From: Bacteroidia bacterium
Lineage (GTDB): Bacteria > Bacteroidota > Bacteroidia > SpSt-205
DNA: 45,051 bases
Reading direction: 5' to 3'
Assembly (NCBI GenBank): GCA_025054525.1
Contig: JANWZJ010000001.1
Location: forward strand, 1 to 45,051
Shown here: piece by piece, positions 10,300-22,594 of the stretch
How positions within the stretch are numbered: the stretch's first letter is position 1
How the letters are laid out: each line of letters starts with the position of its first letter
Notes under the pieces: generated by a model
The model's database searches: none
What the model saw: the letters and a program-made list of their open reading frames with translations, nothing else
What the model was told of the DNA's origin: nothing
Translations under genes and position numbers: made by a program

Positions 10300-10307
10300 C
10301 AAACTTA
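10300..10307 (-). promoter_or_regulatory. -7 promoter element of ftcD operon
   Basis: Minus-strand TAAGTTTG matches TAnnTTTG and ends 4 bases before the GTG start of ftcD. It supports that start and marks a new transcription unit between the SpoIIE-type phosphatase gene and ftcD. No -33 TTTG at 19-21 bases was seen. Confidence 0.55.
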
Positions 10308-10312
10308 CAGAA

Positions 10313-11848
10313 TTACACCCGTATTCCCCCTACCAAAATGTCATCAACCTGTGCTAAAGAGCCTCTCCAGCTATCCAGTTCTGTAGCCAAGGCTTCTACT
10401 TGTGCCGAGGCAGAAAGAGAGGAGATTTGATGGAGAAACTGACGAACTCTCTTAGAGGTATATTTTTTACCTTTAGGTCCGCCGAACTGATCCCCAAATC
10501 CATCCGATGAGGCGTATACCCAGGCGCCTCTGGGCAGGTCAAGTTCATGTAAGCGAAAATAGTGTTCGGCAGGAGCAGAAGCCCCGCCTATCCCTTTTCT
10601 GTCTGCTTCTACTTCCTCCAGTTCAGAGCTATCAGGTCGGGCTATCCATAGTGGACGGTTGGCGCCCGCATAGAATATCTTACCCGTAGCTCGTTCATAA
10701 CATACCAGGGCTATTTCCATTCCATCTTGGGACTTAGAGCCGGGCTCGTCCTGGCGCAGAGCCCGCCGCAGTAGCTGATGAGTTTTAGCGAGCACTGCAT
10801 CAGGTAATACAGCCCCTTCGGTAAGCACAGCCTGGGTAAGTACCCCATTACAAATCATCGTCATGAGCGCTCCAGGCACACCATGCCCAGTGCAGTCCGC
10901 TACTGCCCAATATAAACGGTCTTCCGTGCTCAGAAACCAGTAGAAGTCCCCACTTACTACATCCCGTGGGCGCCAGAAAATAAAGCTATCCGGAAAATAC
11001 TGCTGAATCACCGAAGGAGAAGCCACCATACCGCGTTGTATGCGCGCCGCATACTCTAAGCTTTCGTGAATCTCATGATTAGCTCGCTCAAGCAGCTTGT
11101 AAGCCTCTTCTAACTGGCGCCGATTCTGTTCTATGAGGCTTTTTTCATACTCGGCTCGCTCCCGCTCTACGGCAAGGCGCAGGGCGGCGGCTTCTTTTTC
11201 TCGGCGCTGTTCCTCCTCTCGCTTGCGGTCCGTTACATCCCGCAAACTCAATAAGTATCCCTGAATAATAGGGTCCGCATAGAGCGGCTGTCCCGTCCCC
11301 TCAAAATAACGCCAGTAGCCCTCCCTATGCTGTAAGCGCACGGTAAAAAAGGCAGAACTTGCCCGCGCAAATGCTGTCTCTAAAAGAGGACGATCCTCCG
11401 GTGAAGTAATCTCACGAAGGGTCTCTCCTCGGATTTGTTCGGGATTATAGCCTAAGGTTCTCTGCAAAGAAGGGCTGGCGTATTGAATCGCTCCCTGCTT
11501 ATTGAGGATGAGAAAGATGTCCGAAGTGTACTGAACTAAAGCTTTATATCGCCCTTCTACCCTTAGAACTTCGTTTCGGGCTTGAAGCTCCACCACTTGG
11601 CGGTATCGGCGCGTTTCTTGCCAGTAGCGCCACCCTATGAAGCTCCCTCCTACCGTCAAAAGCAGCCATAATAGACTCACTAAAATTCCCCCCCAAGTAG
11701 GAAGACTCAGATAAATCCCCGTGGCTCCCATTATTCCCACTGCTATTCCCCCCCCTACAATAATCCACATAAGCTGCGAGGCGGCGTCAGCAGGGGACTT
11801 TTGCTGGGTGCGCATCGCCTCCAAGACTACTGCCATTCCCCGCGCCAT
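10313..11848 (-). CDS. Membrane PAS-domain SpoIIE/PP2C-type protein phosphatase
   Basis: Putative serine/threonine phosphatase acting on a signalling partner. The 511-residue chain has two membrane helices at about 24-72, a PAS domain at about 100-215 (YTSDIFLILNKQGAIQYASP to LLSLRDVTDRKRE), a coiled-coil stretch to about 270, and a SpoIIE/PP2C domain to the end. The metal-binding Asp signatures are present: RDVVSGDFYWF, AVADCTGHGVPGALM and YASSDGFGDQFGG, plus a final DDILVGGIRV. The layout resembles RsbU/SpoIIE regulators that control anti-sigma factor antagonists, but no such antagonist is in the window. It follows the porP/sprF gene by one base, so it is probably part of the surface/secretion operon. 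Confidence 0.9.
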   Translation of the reverse strand: MARGMAVVLEAMRTQQKSPADAASQLMWIIVGGGIAVGIMGATGIYLSLPTWGGILVSLLWLLLTVGGSFIGWRYWQETRRYRQVVELQARNEVLRVEGRYKALVQYTSDIFLILNKQGAIQYASPSLQRTLGYNPEQIRGETLREITSPEDRPLLETAFARASSAFFTVRLQHREGYWRYFEGTGQPLYADPIIQGYLLSLRDVTDRKREEEQRREKEAAALRLAVERERAEYEKSLIEQNRRQLEEAYKLLERANHEIHESLEYAARIQRGMVASPSVIQQYFPDSFIFWRPRDVVSGDFYWFLSTEDRLYWAVADCTGHGVPGALMTMICNGVLTQAVLTEGAVLPDAVLAKTHQLLRRALRQDEPGSKSQDGMEIALVCYERATGKIFYAGANRPLWIARPDSSELEEVEADRKGIGGASAPAEHYFRLHELDLPRGAWVYASSDGFGDQFGGPKGKKYTSKRVRQFLHQISSLSASAQVEALATELDSWRGSLAQVDDILVGGIRV

Positions 11849-11849
11849 A

Positions 11850-12869
11850 TCAGAAGTTCGGGAATGGATAGACTACCCCTCGCTCCTTATACGAGTAACC
11901 CAACTGATACTGCATCGCGACTTGAATACCTCCGAATGAAGTAGGGGTCGTCGTGCGGCGAGTCAGAAGACTATAAGCTATGCCCAAGGTGAGCCCTTTC
12001 TGCAAGTTGAAGCCTGCCATGAGTGCGTATTGATCCCGCGCTCGCAGGGAAAAGCCTGCCATTACCGAACCCAAGGGCCGCGTGAACCAGTAGCCCCCTT
12101 CATATAATACGAACTCTACCATGCCAGTCCCCCCTATCCAGTTACTCTGATTAGACCGAGCGTAAAGTAGGGAAATGACAAACTGGAAGGGGGTTCGTGT
12201 GTAAATACGAGCGCCTCCATAGCCGCTCCAAAACATGGACAGCCTTTCTGCTCGCTGGACTAGTAGTCCGATAGAAGGACGATTGAGTCGGGAGATGGAG
12301 AAACCTCCGAAAGGCACGACTTCGGGGTTACCAGGCACCTTGAGGGTGCGGTAGTACATGGCGCCGATCGCATAATCCGCATGCCATAGAGTGGCACGCT
12401 CTGTAGCTTCACCAGTGGGCCGCGAGAAACCCCTACCGTCAAACTGATCCTCAAAGAAAATGTCTCCTGGCTCTATGCTCCGATTGACGAAGCCCGCTGC
12501 CACTCCTGCCCGTATATGATTATATCGTAAGCGAGCCCCCAAAGGTACTTCATATGCAAAGCTCAAGATACCCTTTTGCACTCGCCAAGCGCCCGCCACA
12601 TCAGAACAGAAGTAGCCTCCTACCCCCCCGATAAGATTGACAAAAGAAAGGGGCGCTTCTACACCAGCCCATGTGGAGCTTCCACTGAGAAAGCCTGTGG
12701 CAGGGCGAAAGCTATGGGTGAAAAGCGCCCTTCCTTTCCCATCGGTAAGTCCCACAAATGCAGGACTCAGGGCTTGGGGCTGCGACCAAAACCCAATCGG
12801 TAAAATCTCCTGGGCTAGCGCCTCAGCGCACCAAATGCACCACCCCAGTATATACCACCAGACCTTCAT
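11850..12869 (-). CDS. PorP/SprF family type IX secretion outer-membrane protein
   Basis: A 339-residue outer-membrane beta-barrel of the PorP/SprF family. The signal peptide ends at EALAQ and the conserved N-terminal motif LPIGFWSQPQALSPAFVGL matches the family's 'N-P-A-x-G' opening. The barrel strands end YSYKERGVVYPFPNF. SprF-type proteins are known to be needed for secretion or surface attachment of cargo with the type B C-terminal domain, and this gene directly follows such a cargo gene. It overlaps that gene by 47 bases. The chosen start is supported by the signal peptide. Confidence 0.88.
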   Translation of the reverse strand: MKVWWYILGWCIWCAEALAQEILPIGFWSQPQALSPAFVGLTDGKGRALFTHSFRPATGFLSGSSTWAGVEAPLSFVNLIGGVGGYFCSDVAGAWRVQKGILSFAYEVPLGARLRYNHIRAGVAAGFVNRSIEPGDIFFEDQFDGRGFSRPTGEATERATLWHADYAIGAMYYRTLKVPGNPEVVPFGGFSISRLNRPSIGLLVQRAERLSMFWSGYGGARIYTRTPFQFVISLLYARSNQSNWIGGTGMVEFVLYEGGYWFTRPLGSVMAGFSLRARDQYALMAGFNLQKGLTLGIAYSLLTRRTTTPTSFGGIQVAMQYQLGYSYKERGVVYPFPNF

Positions 12870-15800
12870 CCGGTACGCGAATAATAGCTTTGTATGAATA
12901 AGTACCTGGGTCTAAGATTTGCCCATTTTTGGCTTCGCCTCGCCATTCTCGCACATCGTTACCCTCAAAAACCAACTGTCCCCACCGGTCATACACCTCC
13001 AATCGGTAAAACCGGAAGTTCTCCTCTAAAGGCAGCGGGCGAAAGACATCATTCACTCCATCTCCGTTAGGGGAGAAAGCCGTGGGAAGATAAACCTGTC
13101 GCTTGAGCACTTGAATGCAGTTGGTACAGACGAAGAAGTCGGAGCACCCCAAGTCATTCTGCACATAGAGAACTACAGTATAAACCCCCGGCGCACTGTA
13201 AGAGAACCGAGGATTAGGTACGCTGTCTATATCAGGCCTATTAGGATCACCGAAGTTCCACGTGTAGCGCGTCGCTCCCTGACTACGAGAAGTGAAGGAA
13301 ATAGTGGGATTATTCATCGTAGTCAAGCGGGGTGATACCTCAAAGGCTGCTACAGGCGCAGGCAAAACCTCAAACGCTAACTCATCGTATCCACGGCAAC
13401 CCCCACTGACACTATAAATACAGACTGTGTCTGGCCCAATAGGAAGATTGAGAAATTGAACCGACCTACCCATAGCAAGGTAATAGGGATTAGTTGAGTC
13501 GGGCGGACCCGCCTGCCCTGCCCTCTCTAAGCTGGCTCGGAACCAGATCACCGTGTCCCCAGGACGATACGGAAATACCTCCAAGACCAAAGGCACATTA
13601 GCGCAAACCTTATTTGGTCCTTTGATGCGAGGGACTTGATAGTCTTTGACGAATACGCTATCCGTATAAATAGCGCGCCCACAGCTACCTACCACTGTCC
13701 AAGAGATACCTACCTTTCTACCTCTGTCATCATCAAAGGGAATGTAAATAGCCTGAGGAGAGTCATTAGAAGGGTAAAATACCCCACTTCCATTACTCTG
13801 CCAGAAGCCGCGTGTGCCTGAGGTAATCGTACCCATCAGAATAAGAAACTCACCGACGCAGATTGTATCTACAGAGATTGCAAAAGCTCCCTGCGCATCA
13901 GTAGGATTGACATTCAGGAGTAAGCATATGGAGTCCTTAGATTGGTCTCGACACTCTCCTATATCTTCTGGACGGATGACCCAGCATATTTGTACGGTAG
14001 GAGGGTCAGCCGGACTGGGTATATAGGCACCTGTAGGGTCATTAGGAGAGGTGAATTGCCCTCGTCCATTGGGAGTGTACCATACGCCTCGTCCTTCTGC
14101 GCGCAAAGGCACTGTGTCCCCCACACATGCAGGGCTTCTTAGCCCATAAAACTCTCGGGATAGGAATGTAGGCGAAACGAACACAGTTTCGGCAGGACTT
14201 TCTAATCGGCAGGGGCCATAATGGGCTCGCAACCGGTATATTCTCTGGGAGCGCAAGGGCGGTGTGAGATAGGTAAGGGAGCTGGCGCCCACCCCTTCGT
14301 TCAAAGGTACATCTACCCAGTTAGCGCCATCATAGCTCTGCCAGCGCACGCTATCAGGAGAAGACACTACCTGAAGCTCTAAAGTAGAGCGCTGCCCCAA
14401 GCAAATACTGCGCGGATTCGCAGTGGGACGAGGCAGCGTCGTAGGACAAGGAAGCACGCGTATCCACTTATCGGCTGTCCGCTCACAAGAGCCACCCACC
14501 CGATAAGTAAAGCGCAGCGTATCGGTACGAGGCGGATTAGGCGGTTGTGTGAAAGTAATAAGCACACTTGCAGAGCTGCCTAACGATTGAGAAGTTCCCC
14601 CCTGTGGAATATAGGTCCAGCTACCTTGGCTGAAAGATGCTGGAAAAGTATAGGTATAAGTTCCCCCCACATAGACCGTATCTTTTCCTGCGATAGGTAC
14701 ATTCGCCACAGCGGGCAAAACCCTAACCGAATCAGGCGCACTGGGCGCAGCACAACTTCCAAAGTACACAATAGCTCTATAGCTATACAGACCTTGAGCC
14801 AAAGCTGGGGTGATATATGCAAAGTTTCTCTCCCCTGGAATATTCTGCCAGCTACTTCCATCCCAGCGCTGCCACTGAATGCTATCAGGACGAGCGGGTA
14901 GATTGGTCAGCTGAAAGGTGGCTCTCTCCCCTTCACAGAGGGTATCTGGCACACCCGAGACTTGCCCACCCGTGCCGGGACAGGGGCGAACGAATATGAT
15001 TTTTCGGGAGAGTTGCGAACAGAGTGTTGGAGTACTATATACCACAGCTATGGTATCAGCCCGTAGGGAAGGTGAGGGAAGAATCGTTACTGTGACCTGT
15101 GCCACATCCATAGGACTTATTGGGGTGGCGCTGGATGCCCCTTCCTGCCTGTATAACCAGAGAGAAGAAAAACCAGGGGGAAGCGAACTACCTATACCTG
15201 CTAAGTAGTATGAATAGTTACCTGGAAATACACTATCAGGCCCGCCTATTGGATATAATGACATGCGAGGTTGTATCCCAGCAGTGATGAGGGTATCTTT
15301 GAGAACTCGGTGGCAGTTGCACCGAGCAGAGCGCTCTAAGATAGAGAGCCTGTACTGACTGGGAGGCGCAGGTGCGGGGAAGACCACATAAAAAGAATAG
15401 GGTAAACTGGAACCCCCAACAGGGATTAGCTTGGAAGTGCCTGTCGTGATATCCTGCAAGAGCACAGCGAATGCGCTGGAGGGAGGAACGGAAGAAGAAG
15501 TAACCTGAAAGAATAGCTGTGTGCTATCTCCTGCACATATGCGCACACTAGATGGAATGTTGAAGCTAATCTGGGGACGCGTAGGCTCAAGCGGACAAAG
15601 TCGCAGCGTGTCGCGCGAAATCCAATCTATACGCGGTTTGAGGTTCTGGAGACTATGATTGAGAACAGCTGCACTGACCGAGTCCCATTCTAATATACTC
15701 GCTATATCTCCACAAGTACGCAAAGGAGCACGCAGCACTATGATTGTATCATTAGGCTTTACAGTATGACTGTATGATGGGTTAGGATTAGGCAGTCTGC

Positions 15801-16119
15801 TCACTGTTACATTCACGCGTCCTGCACTCACCGACCATAAGATGGGGCGATAGTATGCGTTGTCGTGGAAACGATTCAGATGGATGGCACGCGCAGCATG
15901 CATATTGAGGAGGGCAGTATTGTAGTAAAAGGGGAAGTTGGAGCTTGCGAGGGTTTCTATTACGGCAGGGTCAATTCGGTTAAGTATTACGGAAATATCC
16001 ACCGAGTCGGGACTGCTCCCTGGACTACTGCTAACTACATAGCGCTGGTGGAGTTCTGCTAAAAAGTGTGTGGGCTGTGCGGCTAATAAAAGTGGCAGAA
16101 ATACCAGCTTACGGAGCAT
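12823..16119 (-). CDS. Large type IX-secreted surface protein with Ig/PKD-like modules and type B (CHU_C) C-terminal domain
   Basis: A 1098-residue exported protein. A signal peptide covers about 1-15. The body is a string of Cys-containing Ig- or PKD-like modules: starts near 188, 388, 566, 660, 750 and 835 share a pattern of strand, Cys-x-G, and 'DSVxWQxxDGxxW' (two closest copies at about 411-425 and 588-602). A PKD domain lies at 921-1004 (YTWNFGDPN, PGVYTVVLYV). The end, 1007-1098, is the gliding motility-associated C-terminal domain (LPTAFSPNGDGVNDVF, EVYDRWGQLVF, PGTYSYKAI), the type B secretion signal. It is probably an adhesin or surface filament. The downstream PorP/SprF protein is its likely secretion partner. 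The ligand is unknown. Confidence 0.9.
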   Translation of the reverse strand: MLRKLVFLPLLLAAQPTHFLAELHQRYVVSSSPGSSPDSVDISVILNRIDPAVIETLASSNFPFYYNTALLNMHAARAIHLNRFHDNAYYRPILWSVSAGRVNVTVSRLPNPNPSYSHTVKPNDTIIVLRAPLRTCGDIASILEWDSVSAAVLNHSLQNLKPRIDWISRDTLRLCPLEPTRPQISFNIPSSVRICAGDSTQLFFQVTSSSVPPSSAFAVLLQDITTGTSKLIPVGGSSLPYSFYVVFPAPAPPSQYRLSILERSARCNCHRVLKDTLITAGIQPRMSLYPIGGPDSVFPGNYSYYLAGIGSSLPPGFSSLWLYRQEGASSATPISPMDVAQVTVTILPSPSLRADTIAVVYSTPTLCSQLSRKIIFVRPCPGTGGQVSGVPDTLCEGERATFQLTNLPARPDSIQWQRWDGSSWQNIPGERNFAYITPALAQGLYSYRAIVYFGSCAAPSAPDSVRVLPAVANVPIAGKDTVYVGGTYTYTFPASFSQGSWTYIPQGGTSQSLGSSASVLITFTQPPNPPRTDTLRFTYRVGGSCERTADKWIRVLPCPTTLPRPTANPRSICLGQRSTLELQVVSSPDSVRWQSYDGANWVDVPLNEGVGASSLTYLTPPLRSQRIYRLRAHYGPCRLESPAETVFVSPTFLSREFYGLRSPACVGDTVPLRAEGRGVWYTPNGRGQFTSPNDPTGAYIPSPADPPTVQICWVIRPEDIGECRDQSKDSICLLLNVNPTDAQGAFAISVDTICVGEFLILMGTITSGTRGFWQSNGSGVFYPSNDSPQAIYIPFDDDRGRKVGISWTVVGSCGRAIYTDSVFVKDYQVPRIKGPNKVCANVPLVLEVFPYRPGDTVIWFRASLERAGQAGPPDSTNPYYLAMGRSVQFLNLPIGPDTVCIYSVSGGCRGYDELAFEVLPAPVAAFEVSPRLTTMNNPTISFTSRSQGATRYTWNFGDPNRPDIDSVPNPRFSYSAPGVYTVVLYVQNDLGCSDFFVCTNCIQVLKRQVYLPTAFSPNGDGVNDVFRPLPLEENFRFYRLEVYDRWGQLVFEGNDVREWRGEAKNGQILDPGTYSYKAIIRVPDEGLVVYTGVVHLVR

Positions 16120-17113
16120 ACAGCAAGGGGAGAGTGAGAGATTCGGCTTCGCTCAGGAGGCGTATATAATATGAGCCGGCAGGAAGGGCAGGTAATGTGA
16201 GGCGATGAGCCTGCTGAGCCACCGCTTCCCAGCGATAGGAAAAAACCTCTTTACCCGTAGCATCATAGAGCACAAAAGAAGCAGAGGTTGTCGTGGGGGA
16301 TTCTATCCATAGCTCGCTGTGAGCCGGCTGCGGATAAATGCGCCATCCGCTTTGAGTGTAGGCATGCAGGGCTGTAGTACGCCATAGTACGGAATCAGTA
16401 CGAGCGGCTGAGCCACATACATGCCGTACTTCTGCATAATACGCGCCTGAGAGCAAGGGTTCATGCGAAAGACCTTCTCCTACACGCACGCCGTCGCGGT
16501 ACCACAGCACTTGAAGATTCTCAGGGCGAAACTCGCCAGGTAGTTCTATTCCCAAAGAACTGCCCTGCCTTCCTATACGAGCAGGGGTAACTAAAGGACA
16601 GAGAAAAAGAGTCTGGGTCACCTCATAGACAAAGCGATCTTTAGAAGGGACCCGAGGTAGGAGAACAATTTCACCTGATTCCATGCCCCAGCGCAGGCGC
16701 AGCGTGTCTCCAAACTGCAAAATCGGCATACGCCATGCCCCAATCCGTTCCCAAGTGCCAGTGAAAGGAATCCCTCTCTCCACTTGAGTAGGCATCAGAT
16801 TGAAGCTCACACGAAGATCATTTGCATTTTCAGGAGCATAGGTCAAATAGAGTGCTTGATAATCGGGTGTGAAAAGGGCGTCTCGCATACCGCGCTGGGT
16901 GATTTCGGGGGCTTGCCATGCCAGCGCTTGGCGGGGAGACAGGAAGAGGACGAAGTTCGCAGCGATGGGAACTTGTGCTTGGGTGCCTCGCCACCAGAAA
17001 TCCACCTCAACAAAGTCTCCGCGCACCCGCGCTTGCGCACGCAGGCTATCCTGTGCCCCCAAAAGAAGCGGATACCAAACAAGCCAGATTATTTGCACCC
17101 AAGAGCACTTCAT
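16109..17113 (-). CDS. Secreted protein with type A type IX secretion C-terminal tail
   Basis: A 334-residue protein with a signal peptide (ending LLLGAQ) and a C-terminal sorting domain at about 262-334 (WRIYPQPAHSELWIES, YDATGKEVFSY, LPALPAGSYYIRLLSE), the Por-secretion tail that directs export by the type IX system. The middle is beta-rich and I do not recognise it; the segment RIGRQGSSLGIELPGEFRPE to VLWYRDGVRVGEGLS looks like an Ig-like fold. It is the first gene of the operon and overlaps the CHU_C gene by 11 bases. A -7 element lies 9 bases before the start codon. Confidence 0.85.
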   Translation of the reverse strand: MKCSWVQIIWLVWYPLLLGAQDSLRAQARVRGDFVEVDFWWRGTQAQVPIAANFVLFLSPRQALAWQAPEITQRGMRDALFTPDYQALYLTYAPENANDLRVSFNLMPTQVERGIPFTGTWERIGAWRMPILQFGDTLRLRWGMESGEIVLLPRVPSKDRFVYEVTQTLFLCPLVTPARIGRQGSSLGIELPGEFRPENLQVLWYRDGVRVGEGLSHEPLLSGAYYAEVRHVCGSAARTDSVLWRTTALHAYTQSGWRIYPQPAHSELWIESPTTTSASFVLYDATGKEVFSYRWEAVAQQAHRLTLPALPAGSYYIRLLSEAESLTLPLLYAP

Positions 17114-17122
17114 AGCTCACTC

Positions 17123-17130
17123 CAAAGATA
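17123..17130 (-). promoter_or_regulatory. -7 promoter element of the type IX surface-protein operon
   Basis: Minus-strand TATCTTTG matches TAnnTTTG and ends 9 bases before the ATG at 17113. No clear -33 TTTG was seen. Confidence 0.55.
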
Positions 17131-18076: not shown

Positions 18077-21000
18077 CTACTCCTCGTAATAAGTAATGAT
18101 GATGCTATCGCCTGCTCGGATGTTATCGTTTTCTAAGCGATTGAGCTGACGCAGTTGGTCTGTTGAAACTTTATACTGAGCGGCAATATCCGATAGGGTT
18201 TCGCCAGGACGCACAATATGAAGGCGCGCACGAGGAACTTTCCGCTTGGCGATAACTTCCTCACTGATACGAGGATCCTCTAAGAAGAACTTTCTGCGTT
18301 GGGCGGAGTTTAGGTCAGGAATGTTCTTCTCTTGAGCCAAGTTGATGAGTTGTTGCGCTTTAGGCAGAAGGGGATACAAAAGTACAGTGCCTTTTTCCCC
18401 AGGAACTGCTAAATAAGTACCCTCTGGATGAAAAGCAGGACGAAACTGAATATGCAAGGGGAAAGAGTATTCCGTGAGACGAAGGAAGGAGCTACCACTC
18501 CAGAGTATGGCTTTTTGATCCGTAGCGATGGAAAGGATGTGTTCGCCGGTGGGGCTCCACTGAATTGCATAAGGGATGCCTTTATGTCCTGGAAGTGTAT
18601 GAGTGCGAATACCTTCGGGCAGCTTCCACAGGTAGAGCATGGAATCAGCGCCTGCTGTGATGAGCCGATTGCCCGACGGATGAAAGGCAGCAGCTTTGAC
18701 AGGGGCATTATGCCCTTTGAGACGAGTAATGAGCTTGCCCTCCCAGTTCCATAAGGAGGAGGTGCCATCTTCACTGAGAGCCAAGATGTACCGCTCATCT
18801 GGGGAGAGTAAGAGCTGCGTAATGGCACCCACATGGGCAGAAAGCCGCTTCGGAGAAGCCCCCTCTTTCCATGACCACAGATACAAAAGACCACCGCGAG
18901 TGGCTACCGCAGCTTTTCTTCCATCCTGAGTAAGGACACCCCATAATACCTCTTCATCTAAGCTTAGTGAGTGGATGAGTTCGCCAGCGAGACCATTCCA
19001 GAGCTTGCAGGTACGATCCAGAGAAGTAGTCAAGATGATACTCCCATCCGCAGAAAGGGCTATGTGCGTAAGGTTATCTTGGTGTCCGACGAGTTGAGCC
19101 ACACTGACACCGCTCCGCAAGTCCCATAGGCGTACCGAGAAATCCTCTGAGAGCGAGGCTAAATACTTGAGGTCCTGCGTGAAATAAACTTTCTCCACGA
19201 TATGCGTATGACCCCGAAGCACTTCTTGCGAAGCACCCGTAGTGGGATTCCAGATGCGAATCGTTTTGTCCCAGCTTGCGGTAGCGAGCTTAGAGCCATC
19301 GGGACTGAATACTGCGTAGATGACCCGATTCTTGTGTCCTATGAGTTTTCGGGGGGGTTTGGGATAGAGATGAGCGTGTAGCGCGAAGTAGAGCGCTGCT
19401 TCGGCTTCGGGCACGTAAGGGCGCTCACCAGGGGCTCCAATCTGCCGAGGAAGCGCTTCCAACGCTAAGCGAACCCCTATCTCGGGATGTCCTTTGCGAG
19501 TTTGGTCTTCTGAGAGAGAAGCTAAGAAAAGCGATTGCAGCACTAAAGCCTTATTGCGCTGCTGAAGCGCAAGGGCTGTCTGATATTCGGCTTGATTGCG
19601 CTCATACTCTGCATTTATGCGAGCCGATTCGGCTACCCGAGTCTGATTTTCAGCGATGCGCTGCTGCTGCAGAGCACGCTCTCTTTCCCGCTCAGCAATC
19701 TGACGCTGATCCTCAGCGATACGACGCTGTCTCTCGGCATTATTGCGCTCCGCTTCGGCGATACGCAAGGCATTTTCCGCTAACATCTTTTGATGCAGGG
19801 CTAAGAGTCGCTCCTTTTCTGCAATCATCCGCTGGCGAAGGGCTTCCTGCGCATTTGCTTCGGCTTTCATGCGCTGCTCTTGGGCGATTCGGGCTTGCAG
19901 GCGCGCTTCTTCGGCATTCTTCTCAGCTAATGCCCGCTGTATTTGCGCATAATACAAGGCTACCAAACTCAGCAGAAAGAGCAGCGTAATCACAAAAAGT
20001 GCCAACAACAGAAGCCGTCGGTTGCGCTCTATGCGAGCTTTGCTTCGGGCCAAATAAAGCTCTATCGCATCCCGCAGCGCTATGGCTTGGGTGATAGGTT
20101 CTACATTAGGCACAAGCTCATCGGGGGGAAGATTTCGCCGTATCCAGGCAGGATTGGGACGCGTGGGATAATACCACTCAGAAAAGTACTGATAGGAGCC
20201 CCCCGAGAGTAAGAGCCGAGGTGAGCGATCCTGTTCCAACCAGCGCTGCACCTGGAACTTAAGCTCGCGGAAGATACGCACGCTTTGGGCTTCTTGTTCA
20301 GCCCAGCGAATGAGCCGTTCCCAGTTCCGAATCAGAGCTTCATGGGAGACGGTGAGGGTATCATTAGGACTGAGCGTGTGGTCTTGACCTTCAGCCAGAG
20401 CGGGCTGGAGAAAGCTCACTTGGGTATCTCGGAAGAGAGCCGCTACCTTAGCTACGAAATCAGTGGATACCCCTGGCAGCCCCAAAATATCGGTGAGTTG
20501 CTGCAGAGTCAGCCGAGCACGCACAGCGCGCCCCTCATCTATTCGGGTAAGAGGTACGAAAATACCCCGTGCTATTTGCTGTAGTTGCTCCAGAGGAACC
20601 CGCTCCCCATATCGCTTTTCATAATACTCATCTAAATGCTCATATAAAGTCTCTGCATGAAAGTTGAGAACATTTCGCAGGTGAGCATGTTGATAGAGTT
20701 CTTGTTCAGTGGGAGACCTTTTCTGAAGATACTGCTCAAATAAGGTTCTTTCTTTTTCGGGCAGGCGACTCACATGAAGTCCCCCCACCATCGCATAATG
20801 GACTAAATCCATCGGCTCCTGCTGTGCGCTGGCTACATGCCAAATGCGATGCAGGGCATGCTGCAGCACAGGAAGCTGGTCTATTCCATCGCCTATGTCG
20901 TTGAGCAAGCGCTGAGTAAGCCTCGGGGTGATTCGGTCTCCATTTAGTTCAGCGGGTTTCTCAATCACGGCTTGGAACTCTTCCCGAGTGAGCCGCGGTA

Positions 21001-22594
21001 CGAAATACGTACTCTCTCCTATCAGCTCGGCAAACCCATGGAAAGCCACACACTGCCCGATAAAGTCAGAGCGCATCGTAAAGATGACCCATATAGGCAG
21101 ATTTTCTCTTCGGGCGATGCGTATGGTCTCGGAAAGAACATTCACGGTTATCTGAGCCAAAGGAGAGGCGATACCCCCTGAGTAGTTCTCTTCATTCGTG
21201 AAAAATTCCTCAAACTGGTCTACCAGGATGAGGAGGTTCTGTCCTTCTCGGAGGCGGGCGATTTTGTCAGCTTCGGATAGAATCTCAAAGGCAGGAGAAG
21301 TAGGGTCTATATAGATGTGGGACTGTTTGTACAAATCTACCAGCGCCGAGAAACCATAGGACAGTTTCGTTTCTACATCGGGGATATTGCTGTGGCCAAT
21401 AGCGGAAGCAAGGGCAGTAGCGAGGTTAGTGAGGGGCTGTTTTTCAGGACGGAAAGCGGCGATAGCCCAAGAGGGATACGCAGCTGGCATGAGATTAGCC
21501 CGCAGCGCTGGCAAAACCCCCGCAAAGACTAAAGAAGATTTCCCATCTCCCGATGCCCCGCTGACCATAACGAACTTCCGCTCCTCCAGTAGTTCTAAGA
21601 TTTTGCGGATATGCTTCTCCCTGCCGTGAAAGAAGATAGCTTCCCCCTCCTCAAATGGACGCAGCCCGATATAAGGGCAACTTCGTTTCGTTTCGCTCCA
21701 TATCGCTGAGCGCCGCGCCTCCGCTAAGCTCTTCTCTATGCAGGCTTGGAGGGCAGGCGGCTCTACCAGCTCCAAACGTACATTCGGCACCTGCAAGGAC
21801 AAATACCGATTACGCAGGGGATCAGGAAAGCCTACTAAATAGATAGGCGTGGCTTGCGAGAGTCCCCCAGCCGCTTTCCAAAGCTGCTGAGTAAGCGCTA
21901 ATGCCCAATCCCCCGCATAATGAAAAAATACTACCAAAAGCTGACTCTGCTGATAGAGGCGAAGGGACTCGGCTACATCTTCATCCGCCTTTTCAGGGCG
22001 GAATGCTAAACTTTGGAGCTTATACTTCTTAGAGAGGTTTTCAATCACTGAGAAGCAGCTCTCTGAGTCGCGCACGTTGTGGATAAAGGCGATGTCATAC
22101 TGCTTGATGATTTGGCGGGCTTCTACAGCCCCAGCTAAGAAGGATTTGACTTCGCCTATCATGAGGGGCATAGCGGGGGTGCGCGTGAGCATGACTCGCT
22201 CGGTAAGCGTATTCTCTACGAAGGTGAGCAGCTCTCGTGCTTCTAACTCATAGACGACGCTCTCATCGCGAGGCGCCCAAACAATCAAGCGGAAAGACGG
22301 GGAGACTTGCTGAAGCAGGATTTCATACTGCCTCTGTAGCAGTAAAGAACCATCAGGTAGCACAGGTCCTTTATCCACGCCTAAAATAAGAAAAGCAGCA
22401 TCGTGCTTCTTGCCTATTTCAGCGAGTGCATTCAGTTCTACCTGCTCTGGAACTTCTACGGAATACCCTGCATTTTTGAGCATAATGCCCAAAACTTCTC
22501 GGTGGATGCGGTCACCCTCGGCAACCACACCCACCCAGATGGAAAAGGGACGAATAGATTCGGCAACCGATATGGTGGTAGCAGGAGCCTCCAT
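18077..22594 (-). CDS. Trans-envelope STAND NTPase: TIR-like pair, nSTAND1, membrane helix, coiled coil, WD40, LysM
   Basis: A 1505-residue signalling protein. Two Rossmann/TIR-like domains (about 18-155 and 166-290) resemble the N-terminal modules often found before nSTAND1. The nSTAND1 NTPase follows from 306 (CPYIGLRPFEEGEAIFFHGRE), with Walker A GASGDGKSS (346-354) and Walker B LLILVDQFEEFF (454-465). One membrane helix at 861-882 is preceded by a strongly basic stretch (ARSKARIERNRR), which predicts N-in/C-out. Then comes a Glu/Arg/Gln/Ala coiled coil (883-1015), seven clear WD40 repeats plus a degenerate eighth (1082-1408) and a C-terminal LysM (1457-1501). By that topology the NTPase is cytoplasmic while the coiled coil, WD40 and LysM are periplasmic, with LysM on peptidoglycan. 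STAND proteins act as ligand-triggered oligomeric switches; ligand and output here are unknown. The start is backed by a -7 element 7 bases upstream. Confidence 0.9.
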   Translation of the reverse strand: MEAPATTISVAESIRPFSIWVGVVAEGDRIHREVLGIMLKNAGYSVEVPEQVELNALAEIGKKHDAAFLILGVDKGPVLPDGSLLLQRQYEILLQQVSPSFRLIVWAPRDESVVYELEARELLTFVENTLTERVMLTRTPAMPLMIGEVKSFLAGAVEARQIIKQYDIAFIHNVRDSESCFSVIENLSKKYKLQSLAFRPEKADEDVAESLRLYQQSQLLVVFFHYAGDWALALTQQLWKAAGGLSQATPIYLVGFPDPLRNRYLSLQVPNVRLELVEPPALQACIEKSLAEARRSAIWSETKRSCPYIGLRPFEEGEAIFFHGREKHIRKILELLEERKFVMVSGASGDGKSSLVFAGVLPALRANLMPAAYPSWAIAAFRPEKQPLTNLATALASAIGHSNIPDVETKLSYGFSALVDLYKQSHIYIDPTSPAFEILSEADKIARLREGQNLLILVDQFEEFFTNEENYSGGIASPLAQITVNVLSETIRIARRENLPIWVIFTMRSDFIGQCVAFHGFAELIGESTYFVPRLTREEFQAVIEKPAELNGDRITPRLTQRLLNDIGDGIDQLPVLQHALHRIWHVASAQQEPMDLVHYAMVGGLHVSRLPEKERTLFEQYLQKRSPTEQELYQHAHLRNVLNFHAETLYEHLDEYYEKRYGERVPLEQLQQIARGIFVPLTRIDEGRAVRARLTLQQLTDILGLPGVSTDFVAKVAALFRDTQVSFLQPALAEGQDHTLSPNDTLTVSHEALIRNWERLIRWAEQEAQSVRIFRELKFQVQRWLEQDRSPRLLLSGGSYQYFSEWYYPTRPNPAWIRRNLPPDELVPNVEPITQAIALRDAIELYLARSKARIERNRRLLLLALFVITLLFLLSLVALYYAQIQRALAEKNAEEARLQARIAQEQRMKAEANAQEALRQRMIAEKERLLALHQKMLAENALRIAEAERNNAERQRRIAEDQRQIAERERERALQQQRIAENQTRVAESARINAEYERNQAEYQTALALQQRNKALVLQSLFLASLSEDQTRKGHPEIGVRLALEALPRQIGAPGERPYVPEAEAALYFALHAHLYPKPPRKLIGHKNRVIYAVFSPDGSKLATASWDKTIRIWNPTTGASQEVLRGHTHIVEKVYFTQDLKYLASLSEDFSVRLWDLRSGVSVAQLVGHQDNLTHIALSADGSIILTTSLDRTCKLWNGLAGELIHSLSLDEEVLWGVLTQDGRKAAVATRGGLLYLWSWKEGASPKRLSAHVGAITQLLLSPDERYILALSEDGTSSLWNWEGKLITRLKGHNAPVKAAAFHPSGNRLITAGADSMLYLWKLPEGIRTHTLPGHKGIPYAIQWSPTGEHILSIATDQKAILWSGSSFLRLTEYSFPLHIQFRPAFHPEGTYLAVPGEKGTVLLYPLLPKAQQLINLAQEKNIPDLNSAQRRKFFLEDPRISEEVIAKRKVPRARLHIVRPGETLSDIAAQYKVSTDQLRQLNRLENDNIRAGDSIIITYYEE

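Follow-up and report, generated by a model that had tools for sequence, protein, structure and literature searches.

A likely genus-level operon joining two type IX secretion cargos, a PorP/SprF-family protein and a PAS-SpoIIE phosphatase

The locus, from an uncultured Bacteroidota lineage, raises the question why a gene for a PAS-SpoIIE phosphatase stands directly behind genes for two cargos of the type IX secretion system (T9SS) and a PorP/SprF-family protein. The four genes lie on the minus strand over 10313–17113 of the window, the whole stretch of 45 051 nucleotides that was analysed (table 1). They had been described as overlapping or abutting, and the ORF calls bear this out: the two cargo genes overlap by 11 nt, the type B cargo and PorP genes by 47 nt, and a 1-nt gap separates the PorP and phosphatase genes.

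Table 1. Positions of the operon genes and associated features in the window.
Feature	Position	Strand	Length	Basis or remark
Type A T9SS cargo gene	16109-17113	-	334 aa	ORF call and family matches
Type B T9SS cargo gene	12823-16119	-	1098 aa	ORF call and family matches
PorP/SprF-family gene	11850-12869	-	339 aa	ORF call and family matches
PAS-SpoIIE phosphatase gene	10313-11848	-	511 aa	ORF call and family matches
-7 promoter-like element TATCTTTG, Bacteroidota type	17130-17123	-		9 nt upstream of the first start codon (ATG)
TAAGTTTG element before ftcD	10300-10307	-		Kept in 9/9 junctions examined
Predicted cohesin-fold domain, type A cargo residues 20-173	16595-17056	-		Fold comparison
Out-of-frame overlap, type B cargo/PorP	12823-12869	-	47 nt	Junction comparison
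CHU_C sorting domain of type B cargo	about 12889-13089	-		Profile match

Of 31 window genes picked by hand, 7 have the motif TAnnTTTG within the 30 nt upstream, where its overall frequency predicts 0.25; the motif is therefore meaningful in the source genome. It occurs ahead of the first operon gene in 9/11 genomes inspected, the exceptions being G010 and G011. Inspection by eye revealed no −33 element near TATCTTTG, and a sigma-70 scan, which does not model the Bacteroidota-type promoter, gave 7 matches against 7.8 expected, the chance level. The claim of a single promoter in front of the genes agrees with these data: TATCTTTG precedes the first gene, and no promoter-like element was present within 300 nt upstream of the SpoIIE gene in any of the 10 genomes scanned, so that a promoter of the phosphatase's own, named beforehand as refuting, is missing over this distance. 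At the other end, TAAGTTTG stands immediately upstream of ftcD in 9/9 junctions examined (eight and that of G010), which sets ftcD apart from the four genes; a longer operon into ftcD and lpxD was set aside on the same ground, although some read-through may occur. TAAGTTTG carries G at a position where, according to PMC6847099, F. johnsoniae promoters almost never have G. Judged by these elements, the four genes are likely to be one transcription unit and the operon real, with TAAGTTTG likely to be its border and outside it.

All four genes were found in the same order and on the same strand of a single contig in 8/10 relatives of the same genus, the phosphatase gene of G005 being cut by a contig end and the type B gene of G007 being frame-broken. 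The remaining two genomes are split by contig ends; G009 fits across two contigs and G001 partly. PorP matches at 63–74% were obtained in 9/10 same-genus genomes, and SpoIIE protein identity across the genus is 60–71%. The genes downstream of the phosphatase (ftcD-lpxD-lpxC/fabZ) are also kept wherever the contig extends that far, and gene order just upstream of the operon differs in the window. Full-length SpoIIE orthologs of the more distant genomes G012 and G059 lie among other genes, away from PorP, and each is followed by a SUKH-like gene. In other families, CHU_C was found within three genes of 50/57 PorP genes and SpoIIE within three genes of 2/57; these PorP genes came from 54 loci chosen by similarity to the PorP of the window from a longer match list rather than from all matches, and the PorP profile found no gene in 3/54 loci (L176, L192 and L196). 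Gene picking dropped any ORF overlapping a longer ORF by more than 30%, by which the PorP of G009 was lost from the neighbourhood listing. The pairing of PorP/SprF with CHU_C, put forward as known in the preliminary description, was thus recovered as general, and a general SpoIIE–PorP partnership was not found at class level (2/57). Conservation of the whole order held within the genus and failed outside it, where only the cargo–PorP pair was seen; by gene neighbourhoods, the phosphatase appears to belong to the operon in this genus only.

The type B cargo matches, at its C-terminus, CHU_C (53.2 bits, cut-off 27) and TIGR04131 (36.3, cut-off 35), and has in addition a PKD domain and a weak Ig_7 match. 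Its neighbour matches PorP_SprF PF11751 (51.2 bits, cut-off 22.3), with TIGR03519 at 85.4 just under the cut-off of 90.55. PorP/SprF proteins are described as shuttle and anchor for type B cargo in other species (PMC12618676 and PMC9143113), and by analogy the protein of the operon may be shuttle and anchor of its type B cargo. The arrangement resembles SprB-SprF of F. johnsoniae and PG1035-PorP of P. gingivalis in that a CHU_C cargo is followed by PorP/SprF on the same strand; it differs in the 47-nt out-of-frame overlap, in the preceding gene for a cohesin-fold type A cargo and the PAS-SpoIIE phosphatase gene behind, and in having no PorE-like gene among the four. Elsewhere in the source genome, GldL, GldM, GldN and a GldK-like FGE-domain gene adjoin another PorP.

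The end of the CHU_C sorting signal of the cargo also encodes, out of frame, the larger part of the PorP signal peptide, an overlap that is absent from the earlier reading of the operon. The ATG at the 47-nt overlap was present in 9/9 junctions compared, the longest PorP frame of G006 and G007 beginning further upstream than this shared ATG, and none of 32 other cargo–PorP pairs overlapped by more than 4 nt. In eight genes, third codon positions were identical at 0.55 inside the overlap versus 0.34–0.43 outside; a codon-use test for the shared PorP start gave p of about 0.026, a weak result from eight related genes.

The type A cargo, with Por_Secre_tail at 28.2 bits (cut-off 27) and TIGR04183 at 27.6 (cut-off 23), consists of a signal peptide (by eye), a domain of predicted cohesin fold, an Ig-like domain and a type A sorting domain; PF18962 matched 9/9 type A orthologs (E up to 1). 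The best of five AlphaFold2 models had a mean pLDDT of 82.4, the other four 63–72. In the fold comparison the first 34 rows were all cohesin or cellulosome-scaffoldin entries (Z 10.6–12.3), the best aligning 136/142 residues at 2.9 Å, from which the N-terminal domain is predicted to have a cohesin fold. Pfam Cohesin (PF00963) matched in 0/13 genomes at E 0.001 and in 0/9 type A orthologs at E 1; the domain is therefore named cohesin-fold and not a member of the Cohesin family. Profile comparison of the N-terminal domain of the type B cargo with the cohesin-fold domain gave a probability of 20% (E 0.0011).

A dockerin-like gene was found in 9/60 relatives searched, all nine in the same family, and in each of the nine it lies directly before the type A gene. 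It is absent from the window and G010; in G008, where the contig begins within the type A gene, none was found. Of the 9 dockerin-like orthologs, 7 matched PF00404 (dockerin type I) at an E of 1 or less, the lowest being 3e-5; in the genome search the G001 copy was above the cut-off, and the operon copies of G002–G007 were not reported at E 0.001. The AlphaFold2 model of the dockerin-like protein (mean pLDDT 55) was too poor to use, and PDB sequence searches with this protein and with the type A cargo gave nothing useful. Neither the cohesin fold nor the dockerin-like gene of the relatives figured in the earlier reading. The idea that a longer type B cargo accompanies loss of the dockerin-like gene was given up, since the window and G010 carry their inserts at different places; nor are the two sisters in the gene trees of PorP and the type A cargo, each of which has a single well-supported inner branch out of eight. 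Like the cohesin–dockerin pairs of cellulosomes, the locus has a protein that carries a secretion signal and a domain predicted to fold as a cohesin and, in nine relatives, a dockerin-like gene directly upstream; by contrast, secretion is signalled by a T9SS domain, the search for an enzyme domain in the type A cargo gave none, Pfam Cohesin gives no match, the window has no dockerin-like gene and the two proteins are a putative binding pair.

The PP2C-type phosphatase (SpoIIE 64.4 bits, cut-off 25; PAS_4 49, cut-off 23.1) has two N-terminal membrane segments (by eye) and a SiaA-like catalytic half. The motifs GDFY, ADCTGHG, DGM[DE], [ST]DG..DQF and DDI are kept in 12/12 aligned orthologs, G005, whose contig ends inside the gene, being left out of the alignment; the acidic metal-site motifs of SpoIIE/PP2C phosphatases are thus conserved. 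With the NCBIfam SiaA model NF038263 the protein scored 194.8 bits, below the equivalog cut-off of 700; by this score it may work like SiaA and is not a member of the SiaA family. The SiaABCD partner-switch pathway of Pseudomonas aeruginosa is alike in its PP2C-type phosphatase with membrane segments and catalytic half of this kind, and SiaB- and SiaC-family genes are present in the source genome; it differs in that the operon has no siaB or siaC, the family matches lying elsewhere, and that the operon phosphatase has a PAS domain. The source genome has 4 SiaC-family, 3 SiaB-like (DUF6272), 3 STAS and 19 SpoIIE matches, and since 19 phosphatases stand against few candidate targets, the target is a guess. 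A Ser/Thr kinase partner was considered and rejected. G006 has a kinase gene close to the operon, as do, judged by eye, G001 and G009; the genes tested at that place in G005 and G010, however, encode TPR/OmpA proteins, and the window has no kinase there. No published tie was found in a literature search for 'SpoIIE' together with 'type IX secretion'.

The reading preferred here, which we give about an even chance as a whole, is one T9SS surface-display operon with a phosphatase acting on a signalling branch. The type B cargo would be exported and then retained at the cell surface by the PorP/SprF-like product of the next gene, the translation of the two probably being coupled because the PorP start and most of the signal peptide lie inside the sorting signal of the cargo. 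The type A cargo would leave by the PorV route, exposing the cohesin-fold domain, which in nine relatives would be paired with the dockerin-like, probably secreted protein of the preceding gene. The phosphatase would most likely dephosphorylate a switch protein of SiaC or STAS type whose gene lies elsewhere, and surface-protein production would thereby also raise the activity of the signalling branch (cf. SiaA in Pseudomonas aggregation). A fuller version is a T9SS docking system in which a cohesin-fold type A protein pairs with the secreted dockerin-like protein of the gene before it, a shuttle with its signal peptide encoded within the export signal of a large type B adhesin anchors that adhesin alongside, and a SiaA-like phosphatase from the same transcript lets assembly of the complex feed a partner-switch decision such as aggregation; this version is speculative and rather unlikely.

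A serious alternative, somewhat short of an even chance, is that the phosphatase is a passenger. Its gene would have come to stand between those for PorP and ftcD in the common ancestor of the genus, and would be co-transcribed while the enzyme neither acts on the surface proteins nor is tuned to them. The orthologs of G012 and G059 outside any PorP context, the rarity of SpoIIE near other PorP genes and the equal retention of the downstream housekeeping genes all fit, and with 19 SpoIIE matches in 1.8 Mb such a neighbour could plausibly arise by chance. The same first three observations leave unsupported the suggested tie between a signal and surface-protein output; a phosphatase inside the operon is an operon product and need not control it. 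Against a mere passenger, the order is kept at the SpoIIE divergence given above, whereas the order just upstream of the operon differs in the window, and the phosphatase has no promoter-like element of its own in any of the 10 genomes scanned, so that its level probably follows the cargo genes.

An action of the phosphatase on the T9SS as such, for instance by way of PorX/SigP, which would let the capacity for secretion keep pace with cargo expression, is improbable. In P. gingivalis, T9SS genes are under the control of PorX (PMC4800418). As in PorX/PorY/SigP control, the source genome has a PorX (637 bits, cut-off 300), here 37 nt head-to-head from a GAF-bearing SpoIIE phosphatase, and by coordinates PglZ and SpoIIE matches lie at most about 2.5 kb apart on one contig in 7/9 genus genomes, the source genome included; however, that phosphatase differs from the one in the operon and is at another locus, and PorX, as a response regulator, receives its phosphate from its histidine kinase. 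PP2C enzymes are not known to remove a phosphate of this kind. Least probable is separate transcription of the phosphatase from a promoter inside the PorP gene, where TACCTTTG at 12547-12540 is an exact TAnnTTTG match but lies within coding region, about 700 nt ahead of the phosphatase start, beyond the 300 nt found empty in all 10 genomes, and such internal matches vary in number and place across the 8 genomes scanned.

Read as a surface-display operon, the locus is a testable case of a phosphatase bound to cargo expression, and it contains a type B cargo–PorP/SprF shuttle pairing of a kind worked out only recently. In the 47-nt overlap the cargo's export signal and its carrier's signal peptide share their bases, which would force the joint evolution, and probably the joint translation, of the two. 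Binding between the cohesin-fold protein and its dockerin-like neighbour, if it takes place, would show that docked complexes can be built by the T9SS, outside cellulosomes.

Open reading frames and family matches placed a type A T9SS cargo gene, a type B (CHU_C) T9SS cargo gene, a PorP/SprF gene and a PAS-SpoIIE phosphatase gene, in that order of reading, on one strand of the window, and bore out the coordinates, strand and family calls of the preliminary description. The two cargo genes overlapped by 11 nt and the type B and PorP genes by 47 nt, and PorP was separated from the phosphatase gene by 1 nt. The genome (1.8 Mb, 116 contigs, 92% complete) was compared with 60 relatives, of which G001–G010 belong to the same genus; public-record names among the relatives were the Bacteroidia MAGs KatS3mg025, KatS3mg026, SKYB7, SKYB87 and SKW103.

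Coordinates of the features discussed (L numbers, stretches read from contigs of the window's genome or of relatives)
Feature	Position	Strand	Remark
-7 element TATCTTTG	window 17130-17123	minus	9 nt before first ATG of unit
Four-gene unit	window 17113-10313	minus	type A cargo to phosphatase
nSTAND NTPase, WD40-repeat and C-terminal LysM protein	window 18077-22594		1505 aa
TPR-repeat gene, G005	L043:7668-9497		weak OmpA match
TPR-repeat gene, G010	L048:654-2441		weak OmpA match
PorP/SprF gene, then FGE-sulfatase-domain gene	L052:9210-11430		own contig C61
SUKH-family genes after phosphatase orthologs	L163:558-1025; L164:7619-8110		Pfam in G012, by eye in G059
PorX	L240:1442-3019	minus	own contig C20
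GAF-like SpoIIE phosphatase	L240:3057-4805	plus	own contig C20

The -7 element of Bacteroidota promoters is TAnnTTTG (PMC6847099). This motif stood at most 30 nt upstream of 7 genes in a hand-picked set of 31 from the window, where its overall frequency would predict 0.25. Of 11 genomes inspected, 9 had a copy before the first gene of the unit (exceptions G010 and G011). In line with the single promoter of the preliminary description, the 300 nt preceding the phosphatase gene contained no TAnnTTTG in 10 of 10 genomes. TAAGTTTG was found directly before ftcD, the next gene, at all nine junctions examined (own genome, G001–G004, G006, G008, G009 and G010; those of G005 and G007 stop short of ftcD at a contig end). 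Given the motif in front, its absence before the phosphatase gene and TAAGTTTG before ftcD, the four genes plausibly form one unit bordered at 10307. Two points speak against it: inspection by eye revealed no -33 element, and the fourth base of TAAGTTTG is a G, which F. johnsoniae promoters almost never use there (PMC6847099). A sigma-70 scan was uninformative for a Bacteroidota-type promoter here. An operon of all four genes is likely.

Upstream of the unit, the window has a glycosyltransferase, preceded by the nSTAND/WD40/LysM protein, which was not found beside the unit in the relatives' stretches read. Four relatives (L042, L043, L044 and L048) have a divergent BD-FAE-type esterase in place of the glycosyltransferase; that of G005 gave a weak type A sorting-domain match (24.4 bits, cut-off 27). 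The TPR-repeat genes of G005 and G010 are the next genes past the esterase; PorE-like proteins too unite TPR- and OmpA-type domains.

In nine of nine genomes (own, G002–G008 and G010) the type B gene contained a PorP-frame ATG at precisely 47 nt from its end, and in G006 and G007 the PorP frame also extended further upstream. The PorP signal peptide is thus mostly encoded inside the CHU_C coding sequence, its first 15 codons overlapping the last codons of the sorting domain in a different frame. No alternative in-frame ATG, GTG or TTG was found in the first 35 PorP codons of the own genome, G005 or G008. Among 32 other same-strand cargo–PorP pairs (G012 and G059 included), scored with ATG starts, spacing was −4 to 778 nt and none overlapped by more than 4 nt. 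Third positions of cargo codons were conserved at 0.55 inside the overlap versus 0.34–0.43 in four neighbouring stretches (eight genes), and protein conservation in the same comparison was 0.72 versus 0.50–0.82. The cargo codon giving the AT of the shared ATG was GAT or TAT in all eight genes (p about 0.026 from codon use alone, uncorrected for relatedness).

PorP-family matches at E 0.001 were obtained in 49 of the 60 relatives, close ones (63–74% identity) in nine of the ten same-genus genomes, and matches at 37% in G012, of the same order, and G059, of another family. The gene order proved conserved on one contig in eight of the ten (G002–G008 and G010), with the phosphatase cut by a contig end in G005 and the type B gene frame-broken in G007. 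The break in G007 (KatS3mg026; L036/L045) lies before the CHU_C domain and is a sequencing error or a real loss. The unit genes of G009 are split over two contig ends; in G001 the phosphatase precedes ftcD on one contig, a second contig has a dockerin-like gene next to a fragment of the type A gene, and the only PorP found was a distant one. The conserved block runs on through ftcD, lpxD, lpxC/fabZ, an ABC protein, DUF1571/LysM and SDR, and therefore conserved order alone is no proof that the genes act together. The type B cargo and PorP remain together in G012 and G059, but the full-length phosphatase orthologs there (43–44%) are found on different contigs, behind a MazG-like gene in G012 and a pyruvate-dehydrogenase-like gene in G059 (by eye, from translations); a SUKH-family gene follows each ortholog. 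In 54 PorP neighbourhoods from other families, 50 of 57 PorP genes had CHU_C no more than three genes away, and 2 of 57 had SpoIIE at such a distance, one directly adjacent (L171, G036). Pairing of cargo and PorP is thus a general feature, whereas the phosphatase seems to have been added in this lineage. On own contig C61 a PorP/SprF gene is followed by a gene with an FGE-sulfatase domain, which is also present in the GldK-like gene that comes after the core PorP on contig C23.

Directly upstream of the type A gene, nine genomes (G001–G007, G009 and G011, the last of another genus) carry a gene of ~180 aa with a dockerin-like end (e.g. ADFNGDGRVDxxD), which, in the eight genomes where both ends are visible, overlaps the type A gene by 4 nt (seven genomes) or 8 nt (G004). 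Seven of the nine copies gave a Dockerin_1 match with E no higher than 1, the lowest being 3e-5; most fell under the curated cut-off. At E 0.001 no such gene was found in the window, G010 or G008, whose contig begins inside the type A gene. Since G010 groups with G002, G003 and G005 in the type A tree, apart from the window, the gene may have been lost twice. One other protein of the own genome has a dockerin end.

AlphaFold2 prediction for the window type A cargo with four relatives gave a mean pLDDT of 82 for the best model and 63–72 for the other four of five. In the predicted model, residues 20–173 resembled cohesins: the first 34 of 50 matches shown were cohesin or cellulosome-scaffoldin entries (Z 10.6–12.3; best match, 136 of 142 residues at 2.9 Å), and the best non-cohesin match to this domain reached Z 8.9. 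With Foldseek, cohesins were among the top matches, interspersed with other beta-sandwich proteins. Residues 253–333 of the model matched a DUF3244 protein (Z 10.4) and the mirolase T9SS C-terminal domain (Z 8.8). By sequence, Pfam Cohesin gave no match in 13 genomes, nor in nine type A orthologs.

At its N-terminus the phosphatase has, as judged by eye, two membrane segments and a short loop; PAS, a charged region of helical appearance and a PP2C-type domain follow, and the motifs of the last were kept in 12 of 12 aligned orthologs. The SiaA model matched its catalytic half at 194.8 bits, where the equivalog cut-off is 700. The balance between SiaA and SiaB sets SiaC phosphorylation in P. aeruginosa and so controls biofilm formation (PMC7647112). 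The own genome gave 19 SpoIIE, 4 SiaC-family, 3 SiaB-like and 3 STAS matches, so that in 1.8 Mb the SpoIIE phosphatases far outnumber the known switch proteins of the SiaC and SiaB type. At one locus a PAS/GAF-SpoIIE gene stands in line with two SiaB-like and two SiaC-family genes, with a STAS gene ~3 kb on. Given the SiaA-like half and these genes, the phosphatase of the unit most likely feeds one SiaB/SiaC/STAS-type switch; which one is a guess. On contig C20, the response regulator of the T9SS, PorX (637 bits against a cut-off of 300), and a GAF-like SpoIIE phosphatase stand head-to-head, 37 nt apart. PglZ and SpoIIE matches lay within ~2.5 kb on one contig in seven of nine genus genomes searched (coordinates; detail from own and G006).

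The known cargo-shuttle operon takes a new form here. The phosphatase may act in a signal connected with the surface proteins, as the preliminary description suggests, and this is somewhat more likely than that it is a passenger in the unit.
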